A stretch of DNA of 64,000 nucleotides from Mesorhizobium sp. M4B.F.Ca.ET.058.02.1.1 (GTDB lineage: Bacteria; Pseudomonadota; Alphaproteobacteria; Rhizobiales; Rhizobiaceae): assembly GCF_003952505.1 (NCBI RefSeq), contig NZ_CP034450.1, positions 4,588,001-4,652,000 on the forward strand. Direction: 5' to 3'. Numbering within the stretch: the first letter of the stretch is position 1; every line of letters begins with the position of its first letter. The position numbers and the translations under genes were made by a program. The notes beneath the pieces are model-generated. The model did no database searches. It was not told where the DNA came from and saw nothing but the letters and a program-made list of their open reading frames with translations. Below are positions 12,256 through 37,725 of this stretch, one piece after another.

Positions 12256-12942
12256 AGCAGAATGTCTTTGACGGCAGCGCTGGCGGTCTTACTTTCTGTC
12301 TTGATCGGCGGCGTTCCTTCCAGGGAATCGGTGACGTTGAACACCACCCTGTCATGACCGCCCACTCTCAGCGAATTTGCAGAACTCAGCACACCATTCC
12401 GTCTTAAGCGACTGACGCATGAGTGATGTGTGTCCAAAATCTGACAGCCGTCAGAAAACATGTCGGGTTCAAAACAGCGGAGCGTCTTGAGCCTGTCGGG
12501 CTTTTCGAAGCCTATCACGCAGTAACTGCGCGCCAGGCGCACTGGCACGGCCTTTGCTGGTCGAGGTGCGGCAATATAGGGTGAGGGCTGACCCGCATGA
12601 GAACACGGAACTCGCTCGATGAAAGGGATGACTCGACCTCATCCAGAAAGCTTCTTTCCGGCGGGTTCGAGGGTGCTGTGCGCGCATCTCGGCGGCGGGC
12701 CAGCGATCAACGGTTGAGGCTACATCTCCGGAGCGAGTGATGCCTCGAAAAATGCAATGCTGTCTCTGGTCCGACGCGCTCGAAGTTTGTGAAGAGTCGG
12801 CCCGGCAAATCGGCGAACCGGGCGGCTTAGGCTGCCAAAAGGGTAGATGGCCGCGTTGACTCAGTAGATCAGCAGGCGGTGCCAGAAAGCCAAAGGCACA
12901 CCATCGTGGCGCTTCGACGTAAGTAGATGGGAGTCGTCACCA
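12256..12942. other. Debris region upstream of the radical SAM gene
   Basis: Apart from the acdS relic at 12612-12728, no gene is supported. The stretch 12256-12600 keeps one minus-strand open frame joined to the transposase fragment, but its product (MPVRLARSYCVIGFEK...) matches nothing I know. No clear promoter for the following gene is seen. Confidence 0.4.
12612..12728 (+). pseudogene. Remnant of the 3' end of a second acdS gene
   Basis: The DNA aligns by eye with the last 120 bases of acdS at 8044-8160. The translation gives FFPAGSRVL-C-AHLGGGPAING, against [21 protein letters not shown] in the intact gene. A stop codon follows ING, and one extra base in the ATGACTCGACCTC stretch shifts the frame upstream. 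The rest of the gene is gone. Confidence 0.82.
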
Positions 12943-13785
12943 GTGATTTTGCCGGAACTTCGCTTAGCAAACACAGCCGGCAGGGTTTTGGAGATAACGA
13001 CGACCACGGGATGCGTCGTAGGATGTTCATATTGTCCCCAGGACAAGTTCGCGGTCCGGCAAAGAAAAGTGTCTCATGCGAGTCATCTGGGTCTTGAAGA
13101 TTTCAAGCGGTGTCTGGCCCGCGTACCGACTTCCGTCGACATTGGTTTTGCGGGATACTCCGAACCTTGGCTCAATCCGGACTGCACCGAAATGGTGGAG
13201 CACGCCTTCGCCAAAGGCCATGGCATCAGGATTTTTACGACGCTGGTGGGAATGAACGGGCAGGACCTGCAACGATTGCAAGCCTTGCGCTTAGGCGTAT
13301 TCGTGGTTCATGTTTTCGATGATGGCACCTACATGAACAGCCGCCTGGTCGGAGACAAGTATCGCGATCTGGTTCGTCAACTCGTCGACGCGGATATCCC
13401 CTTGATCCGGTTCGTGGCTTTGGGCGAGCCCCACCCAGATATAGCCGACATTATTCCTACCCAAGCACTGATAAAAGCGCGGCCCATGAGCAGTAGGGGT
13501 GGAAGCGTCGACCCTAAGATCGTTGCACCACGCCAGCCAGTGGTCGGAGCCCTAACCTGCGTGGACGAACGACAGTATCGGAATGTTCTTCTTCCAAACG
13601 GCGACGTTACCCTATGCTCCATGGATTTTGAACGGCGTCACGTATTGGGCAACCTTCTATATGAGGGTTACTCCGATCTGTTTGAAAAGCCAGTTTTTCG
13701 CGAAATCGTCGACCGCATGAATGGAGCGGATGGTTTTCTGCTTTGCAGAATGTGTGAATTCGCCGACCCAAACGACCGGACCTGA
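12943..13785 (+). CDS. Radical SAM protein with C-terminal SPASM-like cysteines
   Basis: Radical S-adenosylmethionine enzyme of about 280 residues. The 4Fe-4S motif CVVGCSYC (CxxxCxxC) lies at about residues 24-31, and FAGYSEPWLNPD resembles the following GGEP region. The C-terminal part contains ALTCVDERQYRNVLLPNGDVTLCSMDF and, later, LLCRMCEF. This spacing is typical of SPASM or twitch domains that bind an auxiliary cluster. Such enzymes often modify peptides or cofactors; no precursor peptide gene is obvious nearby. The start is GTG at 12943, and the ribosome-binding site is weak. It is intact although flanked by gene fragments. A role in the adjacent putative biosynthetic cluster is only inferred. 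Confidence 0.85.
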   Translation: MILPELRLANTAGRVLEITTTTGCVVGCSYCPQDKFAVRQRKVSHASHLGLEDFKRCLARVPTSVDIGFAGYSEPWLNPDCTEMVEHAFAKGHGIRIFTTLVGMNGQDLQRLQALRLGVFVVHVFDDGTYMNSRLVGDKYRDLVRQLVDADIPLIRFVALGEPHPDIADIIPTQALIKARPMSSRGGSVDPKIVAPRQPVVGALTCVDERQYRNVLLPNGDVTLCSMDFERRHVLGNLLYEGYSDLFEKPVFREIVDRMNGADGFLLCRMCEFADPNDRT

Positions 13786-13899
13786 GCGGATGCCGGCCGA
13801 GAGGGCGTGCCTGGCAATGCGGATGGCCCCACGACAAATGCACCTGCCCGCGACGCCATCGTGTTTTCGCGGTACGCGAGCATGATCCGGTAGGCGCGG

Positions 13900-14125
13900 C
13901 AGAGGGCCTCGAGCATTTCGGAGACGAGTTCATCGAACGTGGTCTTCGCCTTCCAACCGAGCTTGCCGGCTGCCTTGGAGGCATCGCCGATCACCAGGTC
14001 AATCTCGGTCGGACGGAAATAGCGTTTGTCGATACCGATGAGCGCTTGATTGCTTATGCATCACGGCCCACCTCGTCAACGCCTTCCCCCTCCCAGACTA
14101 TCTCCTTTTCGACTGGCCTGAAGGC
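13900..14125 (-). pseudogene. noeL: GDP-mannose 4,6-dehydratase (noeL/gmd) 3' remnant
   Basis: The minus strand encodes IVWEGEGVDEVGRDA and, after a one-base frameshift near 14057, ALIGIDKRYFRPTEIDLVIG and GDASKAAGKLGWKAKTTFDE. This is the C-terminal end of GDP-mannose 4,6-dehydratase. In rhizobia noeL makes GDP-fucose for fucosylated Nod factors. The N-terminal three quarters, with the NAD-binding domain, are missing. The reading continues into unrelated sequence after about 13900. Confidence 0.8.
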
Positions 14126-14132
14126 AGCAGCC

Positions 14133-14203
14133 CAGCTGCGGCCGGGATGGTTGCCGTCGCGGTAGTGGACGTTCTCGAAATCGATGCGGCCCTTCGCCAG
14201 CAC
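14133..14203 (-). pseudogene. Short fragment of a second ABC exporter
   Basis: The minus strand reads VLAKGRIDFENVHYRDGNHP, closely parallel to ITKGRIVFENVHFRYSNH in the ABC exporter at 8896-10683. The DNA match is also visible, for example TGGACGTTCTCGAAA in both. It is about 70 bases long and fused directly to the noeL remnant. Confidence 0.6.
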
Positions 14204-14843
14204 GTCTCCCGGTTGCTTCCGCCTGGCCTACGAACGGGCTTTCCGTCAAGGGCGCCCACGGCGGCCCCGCCCCTTTTTTCCGGCGGCTCGGGCCAATCAT
14301 CTCGCGCAAGAGATCGGAATCCGCAGTCGTCTCCAAGAGAGCGCGGCTTTCGCTGTGTCATCGGTCATCAAAAGTTTTTTGAATCAGGTTGGTGTCCGCA
14401 GCCCGAGGTTGAACGGCGAATATTGATGACCACCGCAAAGCCGCTCGCTCGCTACGGCACTATTGAGGGGGCGCGCTCGCGAGCGGCTTCGCTACCGCCG
14501 AGCTACACAACCTCTGGCGACGCGACCCTGCTAATCGTCCTTGGACTTATCATTCTCTGGAGTCGCTATGGGTAGGCGATGGGATACGTCAACTACCCGA
14601 TATCGTAGTATCGGTGCTTTCGCGGAAACTGTAAAAGCCATCTTGTTGCAGCAGATTCACCGAAAGTGTCCTCACGGAGGCAACGCAACCGAACAACGTT
14701 CGATGAGGATGCCGGCATCACCAGACTAACCAAGGCTGCCTCCGGCATTCTGCTCTCAATGTTGGATGACGAACATCTACCGCGAACCACCAGCCATTAA
14801 TCGCTCTCTCTTCTTTGAACGACCCAAGTGCAGAGGACTTAAT
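14204..14843. other. Spacer upstream of the EctB-like aminotransferase gene
   Basis: No intact gene. A minus-strand stretch near 14300-14335 reads ADSDLLREMIG, reminiscent of the start of another IS256-type transposase, but it is too short to call. The rest holds no recognised feature. Confidence 0.4.
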
Positions 14844-16100
14844 ATGAACACCGACCCTTTCACCGCGCATGAGTCCAACGTTCGTCGCTATGGTCGGTCG
14901 TTTCCCGCGGTCTTTGAGAGGGCACTTGGGGCCACCATCTGGGACGAAACCGGTAACGCATATATCGACTTCCTCGTCGGGTCCGGGGCGCTTAATTACG
15001 GGCACAACAATCCGGATATCATGGCGCCAGCGATTGAATATCTCGTCGGTGAGAACATTCTTCTGTCGCTTGATATGCATACGGCGGCAAAGCGTGACTT
15101 CATTGAAGGGTTCGTCGATTGGATCCTGAAACCCAGAGGCCTTTTGTACAAGATTCAGTTTCCCGGCCCGACCGGCACGAACGCCAACGAAGCGGCTCTG
15201 GCGCTGGCGCGAAAATACACCGGCCGCTCGAGCGTCATGGCCTTTACGAATGCGTTCCACGGCATGTCGCTCGGCTCTCTGGCGGTGTCGGGCTCGGCCT
15301 CAACCAGGCAACTGGGAGGCGTTGCTCGCCACGATGTGATCCGTGTTCCCTATGACGGCTATCCGAGCCAAGCTTTCGATTCCGCCAGTTACATCGACCA
15401 CGTTTTGAGCGACCCGGGGAGCGGCATAGAAAAGCCTGCCGCAATTATACTGGAGACCATCCAGGCAGAAGGCGGCATGAACGCCGCGTCCGCGGCTTGG
15501 CTCACGGAAATTCAGCGCATTTGCCGTACTCACGGCATTGTTTTTATCGTCGACGATATTCAGGCGGGTGCGGGCCGAACTGGCGATTTCTTCTCATTCG
15601 AGTCCGCAAAAATCGAACCGGACATTGTGTGTCTTTCCAAGTCCCTAAGCGGTTCAGGTAGTCCGTTGTCCATCGTTCTGATTCGACCCGACTTGGACAT
15701 ATGGAAGCCGGGAGAGCATAGCGGGACATTCAGAGGCAACAATTTCGCCTTCGTGACGGCAGGAGCCATGTGCAAGATGTGGTCGGATAGAAAATTTACT
15801 GCAGGTATCGAGCGGACAGCCGTCAGGCTGCAAACGCACCTCGATCGCCTCGTTGCGAAATTCCCCCGGTACATCGAACAAAAGCGCGGTCGCGGTCTGA
15901 TGGCCGGCCTGAAATGCCGTTCACCGGCAGTTGTCGGCCGCGTGCACGATGTCGCGTTCGAAAATGGCCTTCTTATCGAATCCTCAGGGCCAAATCGCGA
16001 CGTTATCAAAGTCCTCCCGCCGATAACCATCACCGATGCCGAACTCGATCGTGGCATCACCATCCTTGATCACGCACTACAGGAGCAAGACAATGCATAA
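14844..16100 (+). CDS. Class III aminotransferase, EctB-like (diaminobutyrate aminotransferase family)
   Basis: PLP-dependent class III aminotransferase of 418 residues, closely resembling EctB, which forms L-2,4-diaminobutyrate from aspartate semialdehyde and glutamate. Landmarks are RSFPAVFERALGATIWDETG at the N terminus, PGPTGTNANEAALALARKYT, the cofactor-binding VDDIQAGAGRTG, and the PLP lysine in LSKSLSG. Next come HSGTFRGNNFAFVTA and RGRGLMAGL. The start at 14844 is supported by AGAGGA about 8 bases upstream. Its stop overlaps the next gene by eight bases, so the two are coupled. No EctA or EctC is present, so ectoine itself is probably not the product. The reverse reaction (a DoeD-like role) is possible. 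Confidence 0.87.
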   Translation: MNTDPFTAHESNVRRYGRSFPAVFERALGATIWDETGNAYIDFLVGSGALNYGHNNPDIMAPAIEYLVGENILLSLDMHTAAKRDFIEGFVDWILKPRGLLYKIQFPGPTGTNANEAALALARKYTGRSSVMAFTNAFHGMSLGSLAVSGSASTRQLGGVARHDVIRVPYDGYPSQAFDSASYIDHVLSDPGSGIEKPAAIILETIQAEGGMNAASAAWLTEIQRICRTHGIVFIVDDIQAGAGRTGDFFSFESAKIEPDIVCLSKSLSGSGSPLSIVLIRPDLDIWKPGEHSGTFRGNNFAFVTAGAMCKMWSDRKFTAGIERTAVRLQTHLDRLVAKFPRYIEQKRGRGLMAGLKCRSPAVVGRVHDVAFENGLLIESSGPNRDVIKVLPPITITDAELDRGITILDHALQEQDNA

Positions 16101-16929
16101 GCAGATAACTCAAGTGCCAGCCATCTCCCCGGTTTCAATCAAAGAACGGACCGGGTCGATCAACACGGCGGATATCATCTCAGTCCTGAAAGGTGAGCTC
16201 ACCGCTCTGCACATCAAGCAAGCGTTCAGCGCCGAAGTAGCCGAGGAGATCACCACGAACTTTGTAGGCAGTTCCGGTCTCAAGGAGCGTAATGATGGTG
16301 TGCCCGGACAATATGTCGGCGCATCTCACTACAGGAAGGATGCAGCCACATATTTCGCAGACGCCGAAAACGCGCGGCCGTACGTCGATGCCCTTTTTAA
16401 GAATTTGGTTGACCCGGTCCGAGCAATATTCGGCGCGTTGAAGCGAGAGCTTCATAACCAGGGCATCGAATTGCGGCTGGCCCGTTCCGAACACGGCCAG
16501 GCCAATGTTTGTCGCGCTCTCAGTTGGTCAGGCAGTGGCACGTTTTCCTTGGATCCCCACGACGATGTCGCTCAAGTCTTACGTGCTGGCGATGATTACG
16601 AGCTTTCTGCGGTGGCGCACAATACGGTCGCAGCGCTCAACCTCTATCCCAGCATGTCCGAGAACGGGGGCAATCTGAGGCTCTGGAGCCATAAGCCGAC
16701 AGTTGCGGACCGAAAGTCGCAGGGTGTGGAGACCACTGGATATCCCTATTCGGCAGCCTATCTTGAGGCCGTCCCTTGCCGCGAGTTCCAGCTCAAGGCC
16801 GGGGATATCGCCCTAATCGATGGCGGCTTCGTTCACGGGGTTACCGGTCAATCAGACGGAAAGCGTCGCCTGGTGCTGAATTGCTTTTTCGGATTTGCCC
16901 GGCCTGATCTTGTTCTCTGGTGGACCTGA
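16093..16929 (+). CDS. Fe(II)/2-oxoglutarate-dependent oxygenase
   Basis: Predicted non-haem iron oxygenase (278 residues) that would hydroxylate a small substrate with 2-oxoglutarate and O2. The iron-binding triad is visible as HDD in SLDPHDDVAQV (about residues 155-157) and H in GGFVHGVTGQ. The downstream KRRLVLN supplies an arginine for 2-oxoglutarate. Other features are NGGNLRLWSHKP and GDIALIDGG, typical of cupin strands. AGGAG lies 7 bases before the ATG, and translation overlaps the EctB-like gene. This pairing suggests it acts on the aminotransferase product or a derivative, such as a diamino acid (inference). The substrate is unknown. Confidence 0.78.
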   Translation: MHKQITQVPAISPVSIKERTGSINTADIISVLKGELTALHIKQAFSAEVAEEITTNFVGSSGLKERNDGVPGQYVGASHYRKDAATYFADAENARPYVDALFKNLVDPVRAIFGALKRELHNQGIELRLARSEHGQANVCRALSWSGSGTFSLDPHDDVAQVLRAGDDYELSAVAHNTVAALNLYPSMSENGGNLRLWSHKPTVADRKSQGVETTGYPYSAAYLEAVPCREFQLKAGDIALIDGGFVHGVTGQSDGKRRLVLNCFFGFARPDLVLWWT

Positions 16930-17947
16930 AATAGGAATGTCGCAGCGACCGACCGGATTTAGCCGGCAGTTAAAGCGTGAACATCCTTCGTCACGGGGAC
17001 TTGCCACGGGTGATTTCCTCTAGCTGCAATTAGAGTCCATCCTAATTGATGTAGAAAGAAGATCACTCGTGGCGTGAGTTCCAACGAGGACATCGTTGCT
17101 TGCAAGGGGCCGGCCTCCGAAGCAGGGAAAGAAACATGTGGATCGTCGCACGAATTCTTTCTTGCGATGCGCGACGACTGCGGCGTCATAGCTTTGACCG
17201 GTTGAAAAGCCATTGACCATCCCACTGAGATGAACGCCTTGGATCCCCCGCCTCCGGCCCCGTCGCGTGCGTAAAGCGTCTGCCCTGGTAAGTCAGCACC
17301 GTAGAGATTGGGCCGGAATATTCTCATGCATCATGGCGCGCCACCTCCCGTCGAACGCACTATCGATCTCGCCGTGCCAAGACCGATCTCCCCGCGTGAC
17401 TTGCCCTCGCTATCCGCGGCTGACGGCTTGGGTGGAAGGCACCATCGACACACTTTAAAGACGGCTCAATATAACGAAACAATCTTAGATTCTCAGTTTT
17501 TGAAGGATTTCTCGAAAGGTCGCTCCGACTGAGTGAAAGCTGGCCTGATTCCTGGTCGCCCCGCAGAGGAGAGGCCGAATACCTCGCGAGCAATTGCCAG
17601 TCTGTCTTACGGCGGGAAAACTCAAACGTCAGTTCCTGTCCGGTTGGCTCTTGAAACAGAAGCCCATGACGGCAATAAGCTTCGCATACCAGGAAAGTAC
17701 TTAGCGCCACCCCGGAGGTCAAAGTAGGCGAAATCACCTACAATATTGATGTTGTTTAAAACACCAGAACGAATTTGTATTATATTTTTAACATATAAGT
17801 TCTTGAATCGTCCCTCAATAACTTGGTATTGATCCCATAAGTTAACTGGATCAGGGGTCTCATTGTTTTATTTTACTTAGGCAGAAACTGAGTTGCGAGA
17901 TTTTCCAGGAGCCCAGCAGGGGGCGCCGATACAGACGGAGGATGACT
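16930..17947. other. Long intergenic region with an AT-rich promoter-like zone
   Basis: No gene supported in about 1 kb. The stretch 17740-17880 is strikingly AT-rich for this DNA (for example TTGTATTATATTTTTAACAT) and probably holds the promoter and regulatory sites of the oxygenase gene that follows. No single -35/-10 pair stands out. The remaining 800 bases show only short low-quality open frames. Confidence 0.5.
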
Positions 17948-18877
17948 ATGACCACGCTACCGCAAATCTCATTGGCGAAACTGTCTGCCGATGCGACGCG
18001 ACATGAAGAGCAACAGCGCTTGCGCAATGCATGCGAGGTGTACGGGTTCTTCTACCTTATCGAGCACGGAATCCCGAAGGAACAGATCGCGGATGCCATC
18101 GACGCGTCCCGGCGGTTCTTCGCGTTGCCACTGGCTACAAAGGAACGCTTCGGTCACGCCGCACAAAACGTGCACCCCACTATCGCACGTGGATACAGTC
18201 CGCTGTACGGCGAAATCCTGCATCCTGAGGCCGGCCGCGATCCAAAGGAAGTGTTCGATCTCGGAATCGACAACGAAGGCGATCGGCGTCCGTTTGCGGG
18301 GAGCACACTGTTTCCGGATGAGGCTTTGGCTCCTGGTTTCGCGCGAAGCCTGCTTGCCTTGCAGGCTACCGTGCTCCGCGAAGTCGTCCCGCAGCTCGGA
18401 ACCGCGCTTGCCGACGTGATCGGTTTGGAACAGGGCTGGTTCCAACGGTATTTCAGCCCGCCGACGCTCGAGCAACGCGTAATCCGGTATCCAGCTCGCG
18501 GCGGCACGTGCGCTAAGCACACCGATGGTGGCTTTTTCACGCTGCTGCTGCAGGAGGAACTCCCCACCCGGTCGTTGCAGGTGTGGTTGCGCGGGCGCTG
18601 GATGCCAGTGCCGAGCCTGCCCGACAGTCTCGTAGTCAATTTGGGCGATATGCTTCAGGCTTTGAGCGACGACCGCTTCAAGAGTACGCCGCATCAGGTC
18701 GCGCACAATGGTCTGACCGACCGAATTTCGCTTCCCTTCTTTATCTATCCCGACGTCGACGCGCGCCTGACTTCGCTGGAAGGGCGCCACACCTTCAGTG
18801 TCGCGGAAATGATGCTGCGCAATTACGAGTCAGTCGAGACCGGGAATGGCGCCGGGCGCGCCCGAGAGTTGCAGTGA
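17948..18877 (+). CDS. Isopenicillin-N-synthase-type Fe(II)/2-oxoglutarate oxygenase
   Basis: Member of the isopenicillin N synthase-like dioxygenase family, 309 residues. The N-terminal DIOX_N region includes EVYGFFYLIEHGI and ATKERFGHAAQNVHPTIARG. The catalytic domain holds KHTDGGFFTLLLQ (HxD), STPHQVAHN (distal His) and DRISLPFFIYP (RxS, 2-oxoglutarate binding), so the full active site is present. Relatives hydroxylate or cyclise small molecules; the substrate is unknown. I choose the ATG at 17948, since GGAGG ends 6-8 bases upstream; an ATG at 17942 is too close to it. The long AT-rich region upstream suggests its own promoter. The 3' neighbour is a DUF2267 gene 297 bases away. Confidence 0.86.
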   Translation: MTTLPQISLAKLSADATRHEEQQRLRNACEVYGFFYLIEHGIPKEQIADAIDASRRFFALPLATKERFGHAAQNVHPTIARGYSPLYGEILHPEAGRDPKEVFDLGIDNEGDRRPFAGSTLFPDEALAPGFARSLLALQATVLREVVPQLGTALADVIGLEQGWFQRYFSPPTLEQRVIRYPARGGTCAKHTDGGFFTLLLQEELPTRSLQVWLRGRWMPVPSLPDSLVVNLGDMLQALSDDRFKSTPHQVAHNGLTDRISLPFFIYPDVDARLTSLEGRHTFSVAEMMLRNYESVETGNGAGRARELQ

Positions 18878-19174
18878 GTGTTTGGTTTTCCCAGGCGTGG
18901 GCAATTACTGGCGACGACGCGGGGCACCTCGGCCAATATGCCGGGGGAACTCAATCCGTCCACGTCGCGTGTATAGCGCGGCGGCAATGCGCTTGGGACC
19001 GACCCCGACACCAATGTTCCGTTAGGCTGCATCTGCCGCGGGCTTGGAATCATTTTCGTTCATCTTTCTTGCAGCGCTTCCCCTGAGAGGGGGGCTGGCG
19101 CAAGGCGACGTGACGCATTTCGAGTAACGGCGCGTGAATCTGCCCTGAGAAACTTAAAGGACAGGAATATATGG

Positions 19175-19594
19175 ATGTACCTGAGGCGCGATATCAGCTA
19201 TACGTTGCAAGCAACCCAGAATTGGGTCAGCGATCTGGCGTGGAGACTACGTTGGCATGACCGCGAGCAGGTTTTCCGAGCCCTGATTGCGACACTTCAC
19301 GCCCTGCGCGACTGCCTAGGTCGCGACGAGGCGGTGTACATCGGTGCCCAGCTGCCAGCCTTACTCCGCGGCTTTTACTACGAAGGTTGGCACCCCGGCC
19401 GCCGCGCCATAAACACAAAACGGACTTCGTTTCTCGACCGGATCCACGAGGGCCTCCACCGCGACCCGGCAGTGGATCCGGAAGAGGTTGCCCGCTCGGT
19501 TCTGAGCCAATTCGCGGACCGTTTGTCTGCAGCAGAGATCGAAGAGGCCAGGGCTGCCACTCCAAAACCACTGCATGATCTTTGGCCAGACTGA
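19175..19594 (+). CDS. DUF2267-domain protein
   Basis: A 139-residue soluble, helical protein of the DUF2267 family. The diagnostic part is HDREQVFRALIATLHALRDC followed by EAVYIGAQLPALLRGFYYEGW; then PEEVARSVLSQFADRLSAAE and KPLHDLWP at the end. The function of the family is unknown. The N terminus is a little short, and an overlapping ATG at 19171 in another frame makes the exact start uncertain. AAAGGACAG lies about 10 bases before that ATG. No partner is obvious. Confidence 0.75.
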   Translation: MYLRRDISYTLQATQNWVSDLAWRLRWHDREQVFRALIATLHALRDCLGRDEAVYIGAQLPALLRGFYYEGWHPGRRAINTKRTSFLDRIHEGLHRDPAVDPEEVARSVLSQFADRLSAAEIEEARAATPKPLHDLWPD

Positions 19595-20524
19595 GAGACG
19601 TCTGCCCATGAGCATAGAGACATGAAGCCATCGGCTTGGGAGCCTTCGACCCGGAAAGTCGCCGGCGTTTCCATTTCCGCCAAAACTGGCGGTAAGGGCT
19701 CGAGGCCACCGTTTTGAGGGCGCATCACGGCCCTAGGCCCACTTGAAAATTGGCCAATCCCAGAGCCATCGAGCCAACAAAAGCGACCGGAACTCTGAGC
19801 TGCATAATTCGACCGCTGTCCTGCTGCTCAGTGAAGGCTGATGAAAGACCATCGCGGAGCCAGTGAGCGCCTCCTCGGCTTCATCCTGCTGACACCCAGC
19901 CAATTGGCGCCAGAACGCGTCGCTCTTCGCCGAATTCTAACATTATCCCCGTGGGGGACACTCGTCTCATCAGCTCTCATTCAATGGCGTCAAACATCTT
20001 TCAGCAAATAATGGTTGGGCTGTTTCGTGTTTGCTCTAGGGCAGTATGGCATCACCGATGTCCCTGGCGACACGATGCCGGAATTTGCCGCTCCAGTTGA
20101 AACACTGAATACTCCCTATTGGGTAATCAAAGAATGCTCGTCTGGATAACAAGACAAAGTTACGCCTATATAATACGTTTCCAGCAAATGCAGCCCACGT
20201 ATCTGGTAGGTACCCGAAGGTAGAAGACAAGCTATCATCGCGGGAGAGGAATTGGCTAAAAGGAATTTTAAGACGCATCCTTGCGATTTGTCGGTCTTAG
20301 CGCGGGAGCTGCGTCGTTATCGGTCGTGCGTGGGGCGGGGGCAGGTGGCGATTGAGGTCGCATCAAGAAATGCGATCCTCATAGGCAACCAGGAATCGAC
20401 CTCCGCTGTCGACTTCTTCGAAGCCTATTTTTGCGCTCAGAAGCCCAAAGGCGGCTTTCCCAGGAAGACACGTACGAAGCGTTTGATGCTCAGTACCAAC
20501 AGGAACCGGCGGCGATCGACAAGC
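19595..20524. other. Spacer before the first aldehyde dehydrogenase copy
   Basis: No gene could be supported in about 930 bases. A 57-codon plus-strand frame starting at about 19841 (MKDHRGASERLLGF...) looks mildly protein-like, but has no recognised relative. The frame from 20252 runs into the aldehyde dehydrogenase, but its Arg-rich product looks non-coding. Confidence 0.35.
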
Positions 20525-22026
20525 ATGGCTACTTCAGAAGTGATCAAGAATTTCATCGATGGGGAATGGAGAGATTGTTCGTCCGGCAAACGGATCGAGG
20601 TTGATGACCCTTCAAACGGAGAGACGGTAGCGGTTATTGCAGAGGCAGGACCTGAAGAAGTGCATCTCGCCGTTGCTGCCGCCGACCGTGTCTTTCGCGA
20701 CCGCGTTTTGATAGACATGCACCCGTACGACCGTGGGCGCATGCTTTTCCGCGTGGCGGACGCACTTGAGGCACGCAGCGACGAGGTCGCGATCATTAAC
20801 TGCATAGAGACTGGGAAGGCGTTGGACCTTGCCCGTGGCGAGGTTCGGACCGCCGTCAGATACCTGCGGTACTACGCTGGCTTGGCGGACAAGCTCGAAG
20901 GTCGCTCTATTCCGCGGGGGCGGATCTTGTTGACTATACGGTTAGAAGCCCCTTCGGAGTGTCAGCCCAGATCGTTCCTTGGAACGGCCCCCTCGAACTG
21001 ACGGCCCGTTCACTAGCTTGCGCCATTGCAACTGGTAACTCAGTGGTAGTGAAGTCCCCCGAACTGGCTCCTTTATCAGGCATAGAACTTGCTCGCGCCT
21101 GTGAGACCGCGGGCCTGCCTGCCGGAGCCGTAAACGTGCTCACTGGGTATGGCCAGACGGCAGGCCAGGCGCTGATCGATCATCCCGATGTTCGCCACAT
21201 CGTCTTTACGGGCTCCATGGCAACCGGGCGAACCGTCCTCAAGGCTGCAGCGGAGCGCATCGTACCCTGCATCATGGAACTGGGCGGCAAATCGGCCGCT
21301 GTCGTTTATTCCGATGCCGATCTCGACGCCGTCGTGGAAGCGGTGCGTATCGGAACCTATCTAAATGCTGGCCAGAATTGCAACAACCTAACAAGATTGC
21401 TTGTAGAGCGTTCAATCGCTGATGAAACGTTAGAAAGAGTGAAGGCCTGCGTCGAAGGACTCTCAATTGGACCAGGACGCGAAAACTGCGACATCACCCC
21501 GTTGATCTCTCAAAAGCAGCGAGAGGGGGTCGAGAGCGCCTGCCGGATGGCCCTGTCGCAAGGGGCACGGCTTGTGGCCGGCGGAACTGCACTTTCGGTG
21601 CGAAGCGGCTATTTCATGGCGCCGACTGTATTTGCCGATGTCGCGCCCGACAGTAGTCTTTTTCAGAAAGAAGTCTTCGGTCCTGTTCTTTCCGTTACTG
21701 GTTTCGATGATCCGATAAAAGGGATCGAACTGGCCAACGATACCGATCAAGGCTTGGCAGCGGGCGTTTTCACCCGGGATATCGACCGGGCTCTTTGGAG
21801 CGCGGATCGCCTTTGGGCTGGCCAAGTGTACGTGAATGGATGGTACGTCGGCGGCGTAGAAACGCCGTTCGGTGGAGTGAAGAAGTCTGGCTACGGTAGG
21901 GAAAAGGGTCAGGAAGCCCTTGATGGCTACGTGCAGACCAGAAATATTGGCATCCGGATCTCACAACCCTTGTCTGGTTCGGGCAACAGCGAGCCCGCCG
22001 TGAATCGATCCGATCGTTATTGCTAG
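20525..22026 (+). pseudogene. Aldehyde dehydrogenase copy 1, inactivated by one-base deletion
   Basis: NAD(P)-dependent aldehyde dehydrogenase, practically identical to the intact copy at 38906-40393. The run of G at about 20916-20920 has five bases where the other copy has six, so the frame breaks after SIPRG (about residue 132). It stays broken until an internal start at 20959 (MSAQIVPW). The downstream part still holds the active-site Glu (MELGGKSAA) and Cys (AGQNCNNLTR), but the N-terminal half of the NAD domain is separated. The last 12 residues differ from copy 2 (SEPAVNRSDRYC). A sequencing error in the G run is a possible alternative; if so, the gene would be functional. Confidence 0.9.
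20535..21991 (+). repeat. 1.46 kb direct repeat, copy 1 (aldehyde dehydrogenase)
   Basis: Near-identical to 38916-40373 and in the same orientation, about 18.4 kb apart. By eye I see one missing G and only a handful of substitutions (for example near 20562 and 21898). Homology stops abruptly at both ends, inside the coding region. Confidence 0.93.
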
Positions 22027-22952
22027 TCGCCAATCCGCCGTCGGGAAGTCTTGCGGCGGAGGTTTAGTCGTCGATGCTGGTTTGGGGTCTTCACAGGGCA
22101 CATCGCGCACCAGAACGCTGACCTAGCACCCGACCGGCACAGTATCTCTCGTCGTAACTTTCAGAAATGTTGAGAACCCGTAGTTGCGATTTGGAAAAAT
22201 TGAACCAAGCCGGATGCAGGCGCATGAGCCCCCTACTCCCCTGAAAGCTGCGGGAGGGCACAAGGTTGTCAATCTCGCCGGATATTCCCACCGGTCCAGC
22301 GCGTGCATCGAGATCGAGGTGGTCTTGCGGCTGAGCCTCACGAACAACATCCGGTCGAGGATTACCCATGTCGTGTCGTCGGCCAGCGAGCGGGCATTCC
22401 AAGCATTCCAGTGCGTCTCCTGCTTGCCCCCTTTCTAGGCGACGATCGACCAGGACGTCGTGATCTGCATCGGGCGCAAGGTGACACGAGGGAGTGTCGC
22501 GTGCTCATGCCCGCTAAGTAGTCTCGAGGCGATGCCCGGCGTCATCCGTGCGTCGCTGATTGGCGCTGAGCCCTGCTCCTCCATCCACTGGCTTTGCCTC
22601 GTCGATATCTAGCCCGCTCGCGGACCGGTGATCTGCTGATGTTGAAGGTCCTGTCAAAGTGCGCGTACGGTAGCCGGCGACATCGACGGCCTCATCAGCG
22701 CGCCGACGGCTGCTGGCCAAAAAAACGGAGACAGGCAAGCACCGCCCCAGCGACTATTCAGCGAGAGCCAACCGGATCCCAGCCGGGTGGTCAAAAATCG
22801 CAACAAATCATTCAGCTAACTTTACAAAATCTTCGCGAGATCAGATCGCTGAGCATGGTAGCTTCTCTTGGAGGCTGACGTCAGGCCGAACAACAAGTCG
22901 ACGCCTGTTTACTCCCAGGCCGTCGCACTGCACACTGCGGAGATCGACGGCA
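22027..22952. other. Spacer between aldehyde dehydrogenase copy 1 and ATP-grasp gene
   Basis: No gene supported in about 930 bases. A CCGCCG...CGGCGG inverted repeat just after the stop (about 22035-22060) could be a weak terminator, without a T-run. The plus frame near 22270-22435 (SACIEIEVVLRLSLTNN...) has coding-like composition but no recognised match. Confidence 0.4.
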
Positions 22953-24296
22953 ATGACAAAAAGAGCTCTCATCCTGGTTGAAGGCAACAGAAGTACTGGT
23001 GAGCTATATGTTAAAGCGGCCAAGCGTCTTGGCCTTCATCCAATTACCTTGTCGGCTGACCCAACCCAGTACGATTATCTTGCAGCAGACGATATGGAGA
23101 CAATCCGCGTCGATACGGACAACCTCGATGCCCTGATCAGCGAATGTTCCCGGGTGCGTGCAACTTATGATATTGCTGGCATCACCGGCTTTACGGGTCT
23201 CGATGAGTTAGCCTATGCTACAGTTGGTAAGCTATGCCGATCCTTCGCTCTGCCAGGGCCGAACCCCAGTTCGATTGAACGATGCTGCGATAAATTCACT
23301 CAACGTCAGATCCTCGCGGAGGCCGGCGTTCCTATGCCGGCCTATCGCTTAGCATCGAATGCCGCGGACGTACAAAGCTGTGCCGCGGAAATCAACCTCC
23401 CGGTAATTCTTAAGCCTGCCGTGGGCAGCGGCAGCAGCGGTGTCCTATTGTGCCGCGACGTCGACGAACTAGCAAAACATACGATCCATCTGTTGGGCGG
23501 GAAGCACAAATGGCGGGCTTCGCCCAGGATACTGGTCGAAGAATTCGCACAAGGCCCCTATTATTGGGCTGACATAATGGGGAATGAGGTCATTGGAATT
23601 GGCGGCGCTGACTTCGGGCGCCCACCGCATTTTGTCCATCGTGGGTGCACCTATCCAGCGGTGCTTACTGACGTCGAGCAGCAGCGTATCGCCGATGTAT
23701 CGCTAAGCTGTTTGGAAGCTCTCAGCCTTGGCTGGGGGCCATCGAACATTGGATTCCGCTGGACAAGGCGTGGCCCAGTCGTCATCGAGGTCAATCCGCG
23801 TCTTGCTGGCGCGCCCGGTCCTCAAATGGTTAAATTGGTTTATGGTATCGATCTAGTCACCGAGCACATCAAAGTGGTTATCGGCGAAGAATCGGATTTG
23901 CGAAGTACGCGTTCGCATGTCGCGGGCGCTCGGTTCCTCCTCCCGGAGGGTGATGGCATCCTCGATTGGATTGATGGCGCCAGTCGAGCGGCTGCCGTAG
24001 AAGGTGTCTCGGAGGTCAAATTGCATGTTCAGCCTAAGACACCTATCGTCAGGGAAGGCGATTACCGAGACACGATCGGACACGTCATCGCCGCTTCCCC
24101 GAGCCGCCCTCAGACCGACGCGATACTTCAGCACGCCGTTGCCTTGATTGATTGGTCGATCACGTCGGTTTCTGCCCTTGGCGAAACGGAACACGCTGTG
24201 GCCCCTTACCTTCCACCTGGTGCGGAGATGGTGACAGATAAAGGTACTCATCGCAGCATGTTGGTGAAATCGAGTGCAGGAGACGATGCGGTCTAG
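22953..24296 (+). CDS. ATP-grasp carboxylate-amine ligase
   Basis: ATP-grasp enzyme of 447 residues, likely joining a carboxylate to an amine with ATP, as in L-amino-acid ligases of the BacD type. The N-terminal domain starts ALILVEGNRSTGELYVKAAK. The ATP-binding core includes LPVILKPAVGSGSSGVLLCR (P-loop-like glycine strand, about residues 148-167), RILVEEFAQGPYYWADIM, and the metal-binding VVIEVNPRLAGAPGPQMV near residue 275. A C-terminal lobe of about 130 residues follows. In a cluster with an aminotransferase and two oxygenases, it could conjugate an unusual amino acid to another amino acid or acid (inference). No ribosome-binding site better than GGAGATCG was seen before the ATG. Confidence 0.88.
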   Translation: MTKRALILVEGNRSTGELYVKAAKRLGLHPITLSADPTQYDYLAADDMETIRVDTDNLDALISECSRVRATYDIAGITGFTGLDELAYATVGKLCRSFALPGPNPSSIERCCDKFTQRQILAEAGVPMPAYRLASNAADVQSCAAEINLPVILKPAVGSGSSGVLLCRDVDELAKHTIHLLGGKHKWRASPRILVEEFAQGPYYWADIMGNEVIGIGGADFGRPPHFVHRGCTYPAVLTDVEQQRIADVSLSCLEALSLGWGPSNIGFRWTRRGPVVIEVNPRLAGAPGPQMVKLVYGIDLVTEHIKVVIGEESDLRSTRSHVAGARFLLPEGDGILDWIDGASRAAAVEGVSEVKLHVQPKTPIVREGDYRDTIGHVIAASPSRPQTDAILQHAVALIDWSITSVSALGETEHAVAPYLPPGAEMVTDKGTHRSMLVKSSAGDDAV

Positions 24297-24650
24297 GGTG
24301 AATTGGCCATCCGCGAGGAGACCATTATGCTGACGGGCGTCATTGCTTCCTAGAGCCGACGCGCTCGCCTACCTCCGCTTTTATGCACATGTCGCCGCAC
24401 AAAGCCGATTTCCTGCGTGAACGCGGAAGATTCGAATAGATCGGCCATTTACATGCGCTACATTCAGTAAGGGCGCTCTGAGCGGTCCGGTCCTCTTATT
24501 GTAAGCGGGCCTGATGCGGCTGGTTCAGAACGTTTGCGAAGATACGCCTCCTCCCAAGGCGCACCTGCCCGGCAGCGAGCTAAGTCTCCTGCCGGGCGCC
24601 CTGAGTTGTGTGCGCACTGAGCCAGCGTCCAGCCTTATGAGAGCGGATGA
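24297..24650. other. Intergenic region upstream of the FAD oxidoreductase
   Basis: About 350 bases with no gene. A tiny frame ATG...TAG at about 24328 (MLTGVIAS) follows GAGGAGACC, a good ribosome-binding site. It might be a truncated start of a lost gene or a leader peptide; nothing more can be said. Confidence 0.35.
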
Positions 24651-25931
24651 ATGCTGAACGATAGACGGTCCCATGGGCTTTGGGAGCGGACAGCTCCGCC
24701 GCCGCCTGCAACGGAGAATCTGCGAGGCAACCTCGTCGCCGATGTCGCGATCGTCGGCGCCGGCTACACCGGGTTGTCCACTGCGCTGCACCTTGCCGAG
24801 CGGGGCCTGGACGTTGTCGTGATTGAGGCAGCCGAAATTGGTTTTGGCGCCGCCGGGCGAAGCACCGGGTTGGTGAATGCGGGCCTTTGGGTTATGCCCT
24901 CGGCGCTCAAGGAGACGCTCGGTCCGCTCTATGGCGATCGTTTGCTTAATTTGCTGCGCGATTCCCCACGCACCGTCTTCGAGATCGTCGACAAGCACAA
25001 CTTGCAGTGCGAGCTGAAGCGGGCCGGCACGATCCATTGTGGAGCCGATAAGAAGGGCGTTGCCGAGATCGCGGAGCGAGCTCGGCAGTGGCAGGCGCTC
25101 GGCGCCCCGGTGCACATCCTCGACGCCGGGGAGACGCGTGCCAAGACAGGCACCTCGGCCTTCCCCGGAGGCCTCCTCGACCTGCGTGCCGGGACGATCC
25201 AACCGCTCGCCTATGTGCGCGGCCTCGCTGGTGCGGCGATTGCCGCCGGCGCGACCGTCTTTACGGCGAGCCCGGTCGAGCACATCGGGCGCGAGGGCCG
25301 CCTCTGGCGGCTCGCCACGCAAGGTGGAACCGTCCGGGCGAAGTGGGCGGTTCTTTCGACCGACACCTACACGTCGCGCATCTTCCCCGAGCTGCGTGGC
25401 GAGCAAGTGGTGCTCCCCTTCTTCCATGTTGCGACTGCGCCGCTGAGCCACAGAATTCGCCACACGATTCTGCCCGAAGGGCACGGCGCATGGGACACCC
25501 GCACCGTGCTGACCGCCTTTCGCACAGATAATGCCGGCCGCCTCATCGTCGGCAGCGTCGGCGCGCTCCGCGGCGCCGGAACCGTGATCCATCGCAACTG
25601 GGCACGGCGGCGTATCCGGGCGCTCTTCCCGCAGGTCGGTGAGGTCGAGCTGGAGCATGAGTGGTACGGTCGGATCGGCATGACGAACGACCATCTACCA
25701 CGCCTTCACGCCCCAGCGGAAAACATGATCGCGCTGACGGGCTTCAACGGACGAGGCATCGCGCCGGGCACCGTGTTCGGCCGCGAGCTCGCCCGCCATA
25801 TCAGCGGCGAGCTGCGGCTCGATGCGATGTTCCTGCCCGTGTCCCCGGCGCAGAACGCCTCCTTCCGGGCCATCAGAGAGGGCTACTATGAGCTCGGTGC
25901 GCAGATCGCGCATCTACCGCCGGCGCGCTGA
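24651..25931 (+). CDS. FAD-dependent amine/amino-acid oxidoreductase (DAO family)
   Basis: Flavoprotein of 426 residues with an N-terminal FAD-binding Rossmann motif VGAGYTGLSTALHLAE (about residues 35-50). EAAEIGFGAAGRSTGLVNAG carries the usual GASGRNGG-like flavin loop, and GFNGRGIAPGTVFGRELA lies near the C terminus. It belongs to the DAO family, near PuuB-type gamma-glutamylputrescine oxidases, which oxidise amines to aldehydes. The gene is clearly richer in G and C, especially at third codon positions, than the ATP-grasp gene before it and the GMC gene after it. This suggests a separate origin. An aldehyde product would suit the aldehyde dehydrogenases in the window (inference). Confidence 0.87.
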   Translation: MLNDRRSHGLWERTAPPPPATENLRGNLVADVAIVGAGYTGLSTALHLAERGLDVVVIEAAEIGFGAAGRSTGLVNAGLWVMPSALKETLGPLYGDRLLNLLRDSPRTVFEIVDKHNLQCELKRAGTIHCGADKKGVAEIAERARQWQALGAPVHILDAGETRAKTGTSAFPGGLLDLRAGTIQPLAYVRGLAGAAIAAGATVFTASPVEHIGREGRLWRLATQGGTVRAKWAVLSTDTYTSRIFPELRGEQVVLPFFHVATAPLSHRIRHTILPEGHGAWDTRTVLTAFRTDNAGRLIVGSVGALRGAGTVIHRNWARRRIRALFPQVGEVELEHEWYGRIGMTNDHLPRLHAPAENMIALTGFNGRGIAPGTVFGRELARHISGELRLDAMFLPVSPAQNASFRAIREGYYELGAQIAHLPPAR

Positions 25932-25994
25932 TCCGGTGGGTCAGCTGCTGGTCCACGGCGCGAAGCCTTGTGAGTGACTCAAAGTGCTGACAAA

Positions 25995-26014
25995 TCACCT
26001 CCTCACGGAGGTGA
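25995..26014 (+). promoter_or_regulatory. Hairpin sequestering a perfect Shine-Dalgarno sequence
   Basis: TCACCTCC (25995-26002), loop TCAC, GGAGGTGA (26007-26014): an 8-bp perfect stem whose 3' arm is an ideal ribosome-binding site, four bases (26015-26017 between) from an ATG at 26018. Folding would hide the site, suggesting translational control of the small frame that follows. Confidence 0.5.
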
Positions 26015-26017
26015 ATC

Positions 26018-26286
26018 ATGAACCACGCCTCATTGGAATCCCTCGCGATTCAATCTGAACGTCCGACGCGCTAGCAATGCCGCAGCCTCGAGATAGCCTC
26101 GCGAAAAAGCCGCGCCACTGCAATCGCCTCAAAATCCTTCAGCAGAGCGCTGAGGAAACTCGAAGACCGGAAACGGCTGCAAAGACTGGCAGCCGAAACT
26201 TCGAAAAGACAAGGGAGCAGCACTCCTGCCGATCATTGCGCGTGTGGAAACTCTTCCCACGGCTTCTGTCAAGATGGGTGCTTTTA
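26018..26286 (+). pseudogene. Small reading frame with strong ribosome-binding site, interrupted by TAG
   Basis: Starting at the ATG at 26018, right after GGAGGTGAATC, the frame gives MNHASLESLAIQSERPTR and then a TAG at 26072. The same frame continues open to 26286 with a basic, helical product (SLEIASRKSRATAIASKSFS, then ALRKLEDRKRLQRLAAE). This pattern suggests a small basic protein of about 89 residues broken by one amber codon, or an 18-residue leader peptide. I do not recognise the family. It lies between the FAD oxidoreductase and the GMC oxidoreductase genes. Confidence 0.4.
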
Positions 26287-26452
26287 ATGTCTGTAAGGGG
26301 AAGGAATTCGCTCTCTTCGTAACGTGCAGGAGAATCGCGTGTTTCTGCGGAAATTGCAAAAAATCGGGGCTTTCCTGCCCAGGAATGATCTCATTCGCAA
26401 ATTTCCGCTCTAGAACTGTGCTAGCTTGCTGCCGCAAGATGGGGAGGAATCG

Positions 26453-28162
26453 TTGCTTTTTGACTATATAATTGTAGGTGGTGGCTCATCCGGATGCGTT
26501 ATGGCGAACAGGTTGTCGGCCGATGGTAGTCACGTCCTGCTCGTCGAAGCTGGGCCTGACTTTCTCCCCAACGAAATTCCTGATGATATTCTAGATGGGA
26601 ACCCGACGCGCGCTTACTACAATCAACGATATCAGTGGCCGTCACTTACTGCAGCCGTTGCGCGAAATAGCGACAGACGTGTGCACTATGAGCAAGCTCG
26701 AGTCATAGGTGGAGGCTCCAGTATCAACGCTCAAGTCGCCAATCGGGGTGGACCCGCCGATTATGATGAGTGGGCCTCCACCGGGGCAACGGGTTGGGAT
26801 TGGGAAGGCGTCCTGCCATATTTCCGCCGACTCGAATGCGATCTGGACTTTCGCGATCACTTCCACGGCAACAGCGGGCCGTTGCCGATTAGCCGTGCCG
26901 ACAAAGGAGAGTGGTCAGGATTCGTGAACGCGGTGTCGACGGCTTTTGAAGATGAAAATATACCCTTCTGGCCTGACTTCAACGGTGAGTTCCGCGATGG
27001 CCACTCAGTTGTTCCACTAACAAACCTCAATCGTCGCCGAGTGTCAGCTGCGATGGCTTATTTGCCAGAGAGTGTCCGCGCTCGGACAAATCTTACAATT
27101 TTGGCAGAAACTACGGTCGTAAAACTAACTCTTTCAGGTCGCAAAATAACTGGCGTCGATACTGAGAGTAAGACCGGTCGTCGCCAATCCTATAGCGCAC
27201 CAACTGTGGTCCTATGTGCTGGCGCTATTCATTCGCCCGCAATACTGATGCGATCCGGTATTGGCCCGGCTAAACCCTTATCAGAGCTCGGCATTCAAGT
27301 CATCGCAGATATTAAAGGAGTCGGAAAAAACCTGCAGGAGCATGCCGGGGTCGCCATCTCGGCGTACTTGAAGCCAGAGGATCGGATGTTGCCGACCGCG
27401 ACCGGATATATCCAGATGCATGCTCGGTATTCATCCGGTCACGACGGTTGCCCGCCTACCGATATGGCCATCTCGGTTCTGGCGAAATCTGCCTGGCATC
27501 CCATTGGCAAACGCCTAGGGACGCTCAATTTCTGGGTTAATCGCGTCTATTCGACAGGAACTGTCTCGCTCAAGAGTTCCTCTCATTTCATTGAGCCAGA
27601 AGTGAACTTCGACATGTTGAGCGACCAGCGCGACGCGGAGCGATTGAAAAACGCGTTTCGATTCGTTGCAAGACTGATTAATCATAAGGCCTTGGCGAAT
27701 ACGGCGCTCGACCCTTTTCCTTCTACCTGGACTGGACGAGCAAAGCGGATCGGCAAGTACAACCGTCTGAACTACGGTCTCACATCCTTGCTCGCGGCCG
27801 TTATGGATAGTTCCTCGTCGCTTCGTCGAAGCCTGATCAGATTCGCTATCACTGATGGTCGCAGCATCTCAGACCTTCTAAATAACGACGAGCTTCTTGA
27901 TTACTTTGTACGACAAAACGTTTTTGGGAATTTTCATCCCACTTCAACTTGCAGAATGGGATCTGCTCATGATCCGAACAGTGTGACGGATCCGACAGGC
28001 CGCGTTCATGGACTATCCGGTTTAAGAATCGCCGATGCGTCGGTGATGCCATTCTGCCCGCGAGCAAATACGAACATCCCAACGATTATGGTCGCCGAGA
28101 AAATGTCTGACGCCATACTTCATGAACGCGGGGCAGCAATGAAGGTGTCGTTGGTCAAGTAG
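26453..28162 (+). CDS. GMC-family (choline-dehydrogenase-like) oxidoreductase, TTG start
   Basis: FAD enzyme of the glucose-methanol-choline family, 569 residues, expected to oxidise an alcohol to an aldehyde, as choline dehydrogenase does. It starts FDYIIVGGGSSGCVMANRLS (FAD motif), has the signature ARVIGGGSSINAQVANRGG near residue 85 and the second signature GAIHSPAILMRSGIGPA near 260. It ends with the active-site stretch NFHPTSTCRMG and ANTNIPTIMVAEK. I place the start at TTG 26453 because GGGGAGGAATCG precedes it with ideal spacing; an upstream TTG at 26426 has none. Neighbours are an FAD oxidase upstream and an M20 amidohydrolase downstream. Confidence 0.9.
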   Translation: MLFDYIIVGGGSSGCVMANRLSADGSHVLLVEAGPDFLPNEIPDDILDGNPTRAYYNQRYQWPSLTAAVARNSDRRVHYEQARVIGGGSSINAQVANRGGPADYDEWASTGATGWDWEGVLPYFRRLECDLDFRDHFHGNSGPLPISRADKGEWSGFVNAVSTAFEDENIPFWPDFNGEFRDGHSVVPLTNLNRRRVSAAMAYLPESVRARTNLTILAETTVVKLTLSGRKITGVDTESKTGRRQSYSAPTVVLCAGAIHSPAILMRSGIGPAKPLSELGIQVIADIKGVGKNLQEHAGVAISAYLKPEDRMLPTATGYIQMHARYSSGHDGCPPTDMAISVLAKSAWHPIGKRLGTLNFWVNRVYSTGTVSLKSSSHFIEPEVNFDMLSDQRDAERLKNAFRFVARLINHKALANTALDPFPSTWTGRAKRIGKYNRLNYGLTSLLAAVMDSSSSLRRSLIRFAITDGRSISDLLNNDELLDYFVRQNVFGNFHPTSTCRMGSAHDPNSVTDPTGRVHGLSGLRIADASVMPFCPRANTNIPTIMVAEKMSDAILHERGAAMKVSLVK

Positions 28163-28502
28163 AATTCTGCAAGCTCAAGCGGCCGCAGGCACACCGGTCA
28201 CTTCAGCTCGCTATCAATCTGGCTGGTTCGGAACTTGCCGAATAGCCGGGAACACCAGCTGACCGCCGATCATCTAGAAGTCTGTCGCCCACGTGAACGC
28301 GAGGAGTTTGCCTCATCTCGAAGCGAGATGGGGTCAATACACACAATGCATTTGACTGTAGGGGTTCAACCCTGGAAGTTTTCCAGCGATAGAGACGCGA
28401 CGCGGAACCGCGCATCTAGGATGCTGAGCCCCGCTGCGCAGATGTGGTTCAAGCCGGCAGACGCGAGGCGCGGGCTGCTCATTTTTGGTGCAGGAGACAA
28501 GA
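28163..28502. other. Promoter region of the M20 amidohydrolase gene
   Basis: About 340 bases without a gene. It holds the conserved element at 28314-28358 described separately, and AGGAG just before the next start codon. Confidence 0.55.
28314..28358 (+). promoter_or_regulatory. Conserved operator-like element, copy 1
   Basis: Palindrome CATCTCG-AAG-CGAGATG (28314-28330), 17 bases of mostly variable sequence including TCAATA, then GCATTTGACTG (about 28348-28358). The same layout with identical spacing recurs at 33222-33266, upstream of an M24 hydrolase gene. It lies about 145 bases before the M20 gene. A shared transcription factor site, with TTGACT as a possible -35 box, is inferred. Confidence 0.65.
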
Positions 28503-34612: not shown

Positions 34613-34796
34613 TTATTAGCCCATCAACTTTTCGAATAACGCCTTGGCGGGCCCGGACTATGCGGCAATCGCCCAACACCGGTTTGTTACTCAACGAAAT
34701 AGGAGATCAGCTTCTGCAAAAAAAGACGCTTCTACAAAGCTGGAAACGCCCATCCCGGGCTGCTGGATAATTCAACAAATAAGAAGGGAACGAGAA

Positions 34797-35642: not shown

Positions 35643-35650
35643 CCCCGCCC

Positions 35651-35685: not shown

Positions 35686-35700
35686 GACGCAGGATGGCGA

Positions 35701-37718: not shown

Positions 37719-37725
37719 AAACTTG

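Follow-up and report, generated by a model that had tools for sequence, protein, structure and literature searches.

What does Mesorhizobium sp. M4B.F.Ca.ET.058.02.1.1 make with a run of oxygenase, ligase and oxidase genes that follows a LuxR-type regulator? The genes lie in a stretch of 64,000 nucleotides of contig NZ_CP034450.1 (hereafter the window), bases 4588001-4652000 of the 6.46 Mb single-contig genome. nodC (genome position 4512414) is found some 75 kb to the left of this window, and nifDKEN-like genes, read from open reading frames, are no more than 15 kb away from its left end; the window is thus DNA of the Mesorhizobium symbiosis island. A first-pass annotation, made from the sequence alone, had noted here a radical S-adenosylmethionine protein (rSAM), an EctB-like aminotransferase overlapping an Fe(II)/2-oxoglutarate (2OG) oxygenase, an isopenicillin-N-synthase (IPNS)-type oxygenase, an ATP-grasp ligase, an FAD amine oxidase and a GMC oxidoreductase, preceded by a LuxR regulator without luxI, and had proposed that a diaminobutyrate-type amino acid is made, hydroxylated and joined to another acid under density control. 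Indeed, open reading frames and profile searches recovered all of the named genes on the plus strand. Our comparisons point to the aminotransferase gene ectB and the adjoining oxygenase gene, here called OG, as a translationally coupled two-gene module, which would provide nodule-linked synthesis of hydroxylated L-2,4-diaminobutyrate (DABA), dependent on NifA and followed by strain-specific later steps. We regard this reading, which is built on sequence comparison, as moderately likely.

We first consider the pair itself. The product of ectB (14844-16100, plus strand; 418 amino acids) scored 626.5 bits in the profile search with TIGR02407, above the equivalog cut-off of 552.2. Enzymes of the EctB family aminate aspartate semialdehyde to yield DABA. 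OG (16093-16929, plus strand; 278 amino acids) matched PF22814 (WelO5) with 43.6 bits (gathering cut-off 27), and its score of 90.1 bits against the HilA profile NF041274 is far below the cut-off of 500. With the starts corrected to the conserved positions 14844 and 16093, the 3' end of ectB overlaps the start of OG by 8 bases, and the overlap that had been noted earlier is therefore real. OG shares sequence and fold family with the L-isoleucine dioxygenase HilA and the halogenase WelO5, and fold searches matched both WelO5 and amino-acid dioxygenase folds; BesD was not among the matches listed, which excludes nothing. Searches of OG and rSAM by sequence against solved structures gave no significant match. 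In sequence alignments the iron site of OG, HxD...H, and the arginine were invariant, the aspartate D158 being kept in all 31 sequences of one alignment (A1) and in a second alignment (A2). Halogenases of the WelO5 type carry glycine or alanine where this iron-binding aspartate would be. On the invariant aspartate we reject halogenation, and OG is probably a hydroxylase. The database name of OG relatives, '2OG-Fe(II)-dependent halogenase WelO5 family', is at odds with this residue.

A single scan with OG yielded 50 loci, for which neighbour counts rest on flanks of up to 10 kb and on contig ends. OG stood directly after ectB in all 50 loci, as well as in 4/4 plasmid regions, and the closest relatives of OG were found in Mesorhizobium loci at 96% identity. 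Of 55 ectB-OG junctions, the overlap measures 8 or 11 bases in 39, and 12 more carry the same junction letters; the others show a 4-base gap (two, in Bradyrhizobium), a 128-base overlap (one) or a single frame (one). In Rhizobium jaguaris, ectB and OG constitute one 696-residue frame (L091:10741-12831). Pairwise ratios of non-synonymous to synonymous substitution (dN/dS) were 0.085-0.141 for ectB and 0.133-0.286 for OG (10 comparisons each, kinship ignored). The first-pass annotation had asked whether the genes co-occur across genomes or are never found together: ectB and OG, adjacent in 50/50 loci, are found together, and the ATP-grasp gene accompanies them in 15/50. The proposed formation and hydroxylation of a DABA-type amino acid is probably correct, and the pair is widespread.

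The distribution of the pair also parallels that of nodC. OG was matched in 79 of 146 Mesorhizobium genomes, of which two weak matches were then dropped, a 28% match in a genome lacking nodC (G061) and a fragment in a nodC-positive one (G134). With a TIGR04242 match above cut-off taken as nodC-positive, OG occurred in 77/101 nodC-positive and 0/45 nodC-negative genomes (Fisher 2e-20; kinship ignored). When the order was sampled evenly, OG was matched in 9 of 397 genomes, namely three Mesorhizobium, Coralliovum (47% identity) and five others, of which one match reached 32% and the other four 28-31%, and protein searches extended OG to Bradyrhizobium, Ensifer, Sinorhizobium, Rhizobium and Phreatobacter.

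We then investigated the regulation of the locus. A motif scan detected two NifA-type upstream activator sites, TGT-N10-ACA (12431-12446 and 12461-12476, plus strand), and a sigma-54 (-24/-12) promoter, CTGGCACGGCCTTTGCT (12542-12558, plus strand), a cluster that lies ahead of an acdS relic and of rSAM. The activator sites lie about 100 bases ahead of the -24/-12 site, so that positions 12431, 12461 and 12542 present the NifA-promoter layout, and the cluster appeared in 0 of 300 Markov resamplings, the pattern having been picked after the site was seen. The relic (12600-12735, plus strand, limits approximate) is the 3' end of an acdS copy, recognized by alignment with loci L036 and L041, where acdS precedes rSAM, in L036 as a full gene. 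rSAM itself (12943-13785, plus strand; 280 amino acids) has a Cx3Cx2C motif at residue 24 and a SPASM-like C-terminus, with profile scores above the Pfam cut-off for SPASM and below it for Radical_SAM. CTGGCACGGCCTTTGCT recurs identically upstream of an open rSAM orthologue (87% identical, 280 residues; contig 30421-29582) in M. loti CJ3sym (L160, contig 22000-31000), and the NifA-promoter table of M. loti R7A lists it with 'no annotated genes' (PMC3538637, which like the other papers cited here is drawn on in part). It is probable that rSAM belongs to the same NifA-linked set as the pair. A further NifA site (3727) and sigma-54 site (3811) were seen upstream of a redoxin/TlpA-like gene (3954-5138).

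Published expression data bear on the same point. The R7A gene msi260, a putative DABA transaminase gene of the symbiosis island, reached 1339 fusion units in nodules, compared with 686 in a nifA1 mutant, 5 in a nifA2 mutant and fewer than 20 in broth (PMC3538637). It is of the same gene type as the window's ectB, lies in the island beside iscN-iscU in the layout of L092, and depends strongly on NifA2 in nodules, although the parts of the paper covered do not mention a coupled 2OG gene; our comparison with msi260 was made only through the CJ3sym copy, whose EctB is 84% identical to that of the window. Similarly, ectB transcript and DABA decreased in a nifA mutant of P. phymatum (PMC8305402), beside whose ectB no 2OG gene is annotated.

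A number of observations weigh against a NifA-dependent, nodule-linked role of the pair. The strict sigma-54 site is kept in only 8 of 24 rSAM-bearing relatives; the -24 element reads TAGCTC, with the GG lost, in 13, and of the other three one carries a different change and two lack the promoter region. The 900 bases upstream of ectB, scanned in 55 rows, contained no sigma-54 site, and the R7A authors, finding no NifA promoter before msi260, considered direct activation by NifA highly unlikely (PMC3538637). The msi260 mutant was, moreover, fully effective in symbiosis (PMC3538637). OG is lacking in 24 of the 101 nodC-positive Mesorhizobium genomes, and NifA-dependent or nodule ectB without OG is found in the P. 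phymatum, NGR234, CIAT 899 and R. leguminosarum regions.

The last of these points indicates that DABA has other fates too, and thereby raises the possibility that the pair serves primary metabolism, with DABA feeding beta-alanine and pantothenate, or carrying nitrogen in bacteroids, as proposed for the transaminase Dat, and with OG as a strain-specific side branch. Only for Dat of R. leguminosarum is DABA transaminase activity established in print; the enzyme is induced in pea nodules and benefits the symbiosis with pea. DABA is there linked to beta-alanine and pantothenate: beta-alanine is reduced in Dat mutants, and pantothenate auxotrophy is relieved by DABA (PMC10228743). Like ectB of the window, its gene is found on symbiotic DNA, in this case a symbiotic plasmid (PMC10228743), and we suppose it to be the ectB beside nifH on pRlvC. 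The ectB of the UPM791 symbiotic plasmid differs, being about 53% identical, with ATP-grasp neighbours and no OG. Many rhizobial plasmids carry an ectB of only about 50-55% identity, and no such 2OG enzyme is annotated beside it in eight annotated regions (NGR234, CIAT 899, pHRC017, S. mexicanum, R. sullae, R. anhuiense, R. leguminosarum and R. etli) and in Rhizobium sp. 007. Copies of about 52% identity were seen near nif, acdS, aspartate-semialdehyde dehydrogenase, amino-acid-kinase-like and ATP-grasp genes (L110, L112, L114, L115). These other plasmid copies without an adjoining OG suggest that forming DABA is the more widespread trait and having OG the specialized one, and the copies of about 52% identity apparently represent a wider symbiotic DABA supply. 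The occurrence of ectB clades without OG would suit a role in primary metabolism, but such a role leaves unexplained why this ectB clade is constantly followed by OG in overlapping frames, and we consider it improbable.

A larger gene set around the pair may point to a different fate of the product. In Coralliovum pocilloporae (G189), a MetRS-like gene, ectB, OG (8-base overlap) and genes for a methyltransferase, a LysE exporter and a HilB-like protein are closely spaced, and genes for an N-monooxygenase (NMO) and a cupin diverge from this run. NMO, cupin and MetRS-like protein form a known hydrazine-forming trio (PMC8664883, PMC11705231), in which the family members Apy11 and Apy9 act on DABA, with N4-hydroxy-DABA being used (PMC11705231). 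Furthermore, M. loti CJ3sym (G027) carries on one strand, within 22 kb and all open, genes for rSAM, NMO, a PhyH-type oxygenase and a cupin-MetRS protein, acdS, ectB and OG. Its cupin-MetRS gene is an open 696-residue frame with MetRS family matches, the cupin part of which aligns with the Coralliovum Cupin_2 protein, and sigma-54/NifA sites stand before rSAM (CTGGCACGGCCTTTGCT), NMO (CTGGCACGTTCGATGCA) and acdS (TTGGCACGGTACATGCT), all three of which are held in the R7A NifA-promoter table (PMC3538637). At L130:16424-18514 and in L160, a cupin-MetRS hydrazine-synthetase-like gene was seen after NMO and the PhyH-type oxygenase, with a NifA/sigma-54 promoter ahead of NMO, on the symbiosis island of the M. 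loti type. A review table of hydrazine synthetases includes the R7A protein Q8KGM6. In comparison with actinopyridazinone-type synthesis by Apy11 and Apy9 (PMC11705231), DABA, NMO and cupin-MetRS all have CJ3sym counterparts, whereas the rhizobial set has a symbiosis-island location, NifA-type promoters and an extra Fe/2OG enzyme, and its synthetase is only a relic in the window.

The pair could accordingly belong to a hydrazine pathway based on DABA, in which EctB forms DABA, OG hydroxylates it, NMO hydroxylates its terminal nitrogen and cupin-MetRS joins a second amino acid, with the last step decayed in the present strain. The window indeed holds two short pieces of a cupin-MetRS gene (2933-3138, plus strand), of which 22 residues are 91% identical and 52 aligned residues 58% identical to the synthetase (search E 2.8e-9); at 1e-40 no synthetase was matched in this genome, which holds the relic only. 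The match lists for synthetase and NMO, like those for ATP-grasp, are part of all matches. At 1e-40 the synthetase was matched in 44 of 146 Mesorhizobium genomes (28 with a close copy, 5 with fragments only and 11 with only a distant type of 26-31% identity), and nodC-positive carriers of the close type were not enriched in OG (22/28 vs 77/101 overall). The distant cupin-MetRS type (loci L156, L157 and L158 are examples) was seen in 15/146 genomes, including those with both types, and beside a PF13434 match in 12. NMO, taken as PF13434 at 1e-50 or better, was likewise not enriched with the pair, being present in 72/77 nodC-positive genomes with OG and 21/24 without it, and in 8/45 nodC-negative ones, and the Coralliovum and Mesorhizobium NMOs are only about 26% identical. 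The NMO gene of this strain (L121:17033-18331) is open, lies just outside the window, 1.2 kb to its left, and is under purifying selection (dN/dS 0.12-0.47 against close relatives, the top value resulting from very few changes), but no recognizable NifA or sigma-54 site precedes it or its counterparts in six related loci. Taken together, a part in a hydrazine pathway is a possible but rather doubtful role for the pair. A NifA-switched bacteroid pathway in M. loti and relatives, in which hydroxylated DABA is turned into an N-N-bonded hydrazine via rSAM, NMO and cupin-MetRS, and of which the window strain keeps the front half only, is a further reading that we hold tentatively and as less likely than not; its probability is lowered slightly by the loss of the promoter in most rSAM relatives. 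The one paper found to combine hydrazine with Mesorhizobium and its symbiosis island is unrelated by its title, and none of 20 other listed papers named a hydrazine synthetase, subscription literature lying largely outside the coverage. Since the synthetase is a relic in this strain, the pair must be retained there for some reason other than the N-N step.

We next turn to the other neighbours of the pair, which had been taken as parts of one pathway under density control. The LuxR-type regulator (11257-12096, plus strand) has autoinducer-binding and GerE domains and carries the residues for binding N-acylhomoserine lactone (AHL) in the spacing W-Y-DP-W-G, by TraR numbering. It lacks a luxI partner in the window, as stated before, though three Autoind_synth matches above cut-off are present elsewhere in the genome, the nearest to the window at genome position 4736537. 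Two strong matches to AHL synthases of the LuxI family, at 4736537 and 4928133, are a possible signal source for LuxR. The scan gave one tra-box-like site, at 47185, far from the pathway genes, no tts box, and scattered nod-box-like matches with two mismatches each. With no tra box near, and with two NifA sites and a sigma-54 promoter in its place and msi260 dependent on NifA2 in print (PMC3538637), control by cell density is not supported, even though LuxR might still have an input into the pair, perhaps through a box of another kind.

Downstream of OG follow, all on the plus strand, the IPNS-type 2OG oxygenase (17942-18877), a DUF2267 protein (19175-19594), an aldehyde dehydrogenase split over two frames and probably a pseudogene (20252-22026), the ATP-grasp amino-acid ligase (22953-24296), a pipecolate-oxidase-like FAD oxidase of the DAO family (24651-25931; 424 bits, below the NF050086 cut-off of 600) and the GMC oxidoreductase (26426-28162). 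The earlier inventory was right in the genes it listed and had passed over the aldehyde dehydrogenase and the DUF2267 gene. Several genes of the stretch are separated by gaps of about 1 kb, which makes a single operon unlikely. Near OG, the 50 loci contained LuxR in 39, acdS in 26, an ABC exporter in 24, rSAM in 24, IPNS in 20, GMC in 17, ATP-grasp in 15, DUF2267 in 13 and DAO in 1. IPNS, DAO and GMC, present in only 20, 1 and 17 loci, are thus not supported as fixed parts of the pathway, and IPNS, DUF2267 and GMC look like a separate travelling module.

The ATP-grasp ligase retains more interest. Its LAL_C2 domain scored 53.1 bits (cut-off 29.4), and in 14 of the 18 genomes with both genes on one contig the nearest listed relative lay less than 20 kb from OG; these distances come from 20 hand-entered genomes of 1 to 5 contigs and are upper bounds, as only listed copies count, and G002, where the nearest listed copy is 73 kb from OG, is outside the set. 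Among 15 compared regions, of which the plasmid regions were picked by hand, ATP-grasp relatives of 62-68% identity were near ectB in four, with two copies in three of these, and LuxR homologues of 51-59% identity were near ectB in five; one further region had a LuxR homologue of 40% identity, and two had partial homologues. The proximity to the pair favours the suggested joining to another acid without proving it: ligation by ATP-grasp as a later step is plausible, and the enzyme is often near OG, but the family is multi-copy, occurring in 96/146 Mesorhizobium genomes and in 3 copies in this one. These associations, together with the flanks of L035, which combine OG, LuxR, IPNS, GMC, DAO and ATP-grasp, could be taken to mean that EctB, OG, IPNS, ATP-grasp, DAO and GMC form one LuxR-controlled set acting on one compound. 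Gene presence varies strongly among loci, however, the stretch is interrupted by gaps and by the split aldehyde dehydrogenase, and NifA sites but no tra box are found near, so that such a set appears decidedly improbable.

Finally, an EctB equivalog might signal ectoine or hydroxyectoine metabolism, tied to the genes at 28485-38622. EctB is shared with the EctABC(D) system, and the genome has one match to the EctC family PF06339 (131 bits, genome position 5021259), away from ectB. The M20, M24, EhuB (two), EhuC and EutA-like genes at 28485-38622 were seen to resemble ectoine uptake and breakdown genes, several of them scoring below curated cut-offs: EhuB1 and EhuC exceed theirs, but the DoeA-, DoeB2- and EutA-like scores do not. 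EctA (TIGR02406) had no match in the genome at E 0.001, which makes ectoine synthesis unlikely and led us to reject it for the ectB locus. OG is not EctD by family match, and homologues of M20, M24 and EhuB1 were near OG in 1/50 loci each; we thus consider this connection very unlikely indeed. In the same part of the window, a sarcosine-dehydrogenase-like gene is split over two frames (30229-32975, minus strand), with an intact 824-residue relative at 57045-59519.

We therefore return to the coupled two-gene module. In nitrogen-fixing bacteroids, EctB would convert aspartate semialdehyde to DABA, and OG would then hydroxylate DABA, most simply to 3-hydroxy-DABA, both the substrate and the position being read from family membership and gene context. 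Dependence on NifA is in print for the M. loti transaminase and may be expected for this strain. The hydroxy-DABA would be a precursor and not an osmolyte; where the island is M. loti-like it would be N-hydroxylated and linked through an N-N bond, and elsewhere possibly ligated by ATP-grasp and exported; with later steps that differ between strains, only the ectB-OG pair is constant. Since the hydrazine step is dead in this strain, its product would be hydroxy-DABA, or its amide or N-hydroxy derivative.

The first-pass annotation knew of no described locus with this set of genes. This view holds for the coupled 2OG gene, which the covered parts of the literature on diaminobutyrate together with the symbiosis island, bacteroids or NifA do not describe (subscription literature being mostly uncovered), and not for rhizobial DABA transaminases, which have already been studied. 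Nodule-linked DABA transaminases are on record for three rhizobia, and the coupled, putative hydroxylase, confined to nodC-positive genomes in the Mesorhizobium sample, suggests a next step for DABA. The CJ3sym rSAM behind CTGGCACGGCCTTTGCT offers an explanation for the R7A NifA promoter without an annotated gene. If the link to hydrazine formation is true, rhizobia in nodules would produce a metabolite with an N-N bond, controlled by the regulator of nitrogen fixation.

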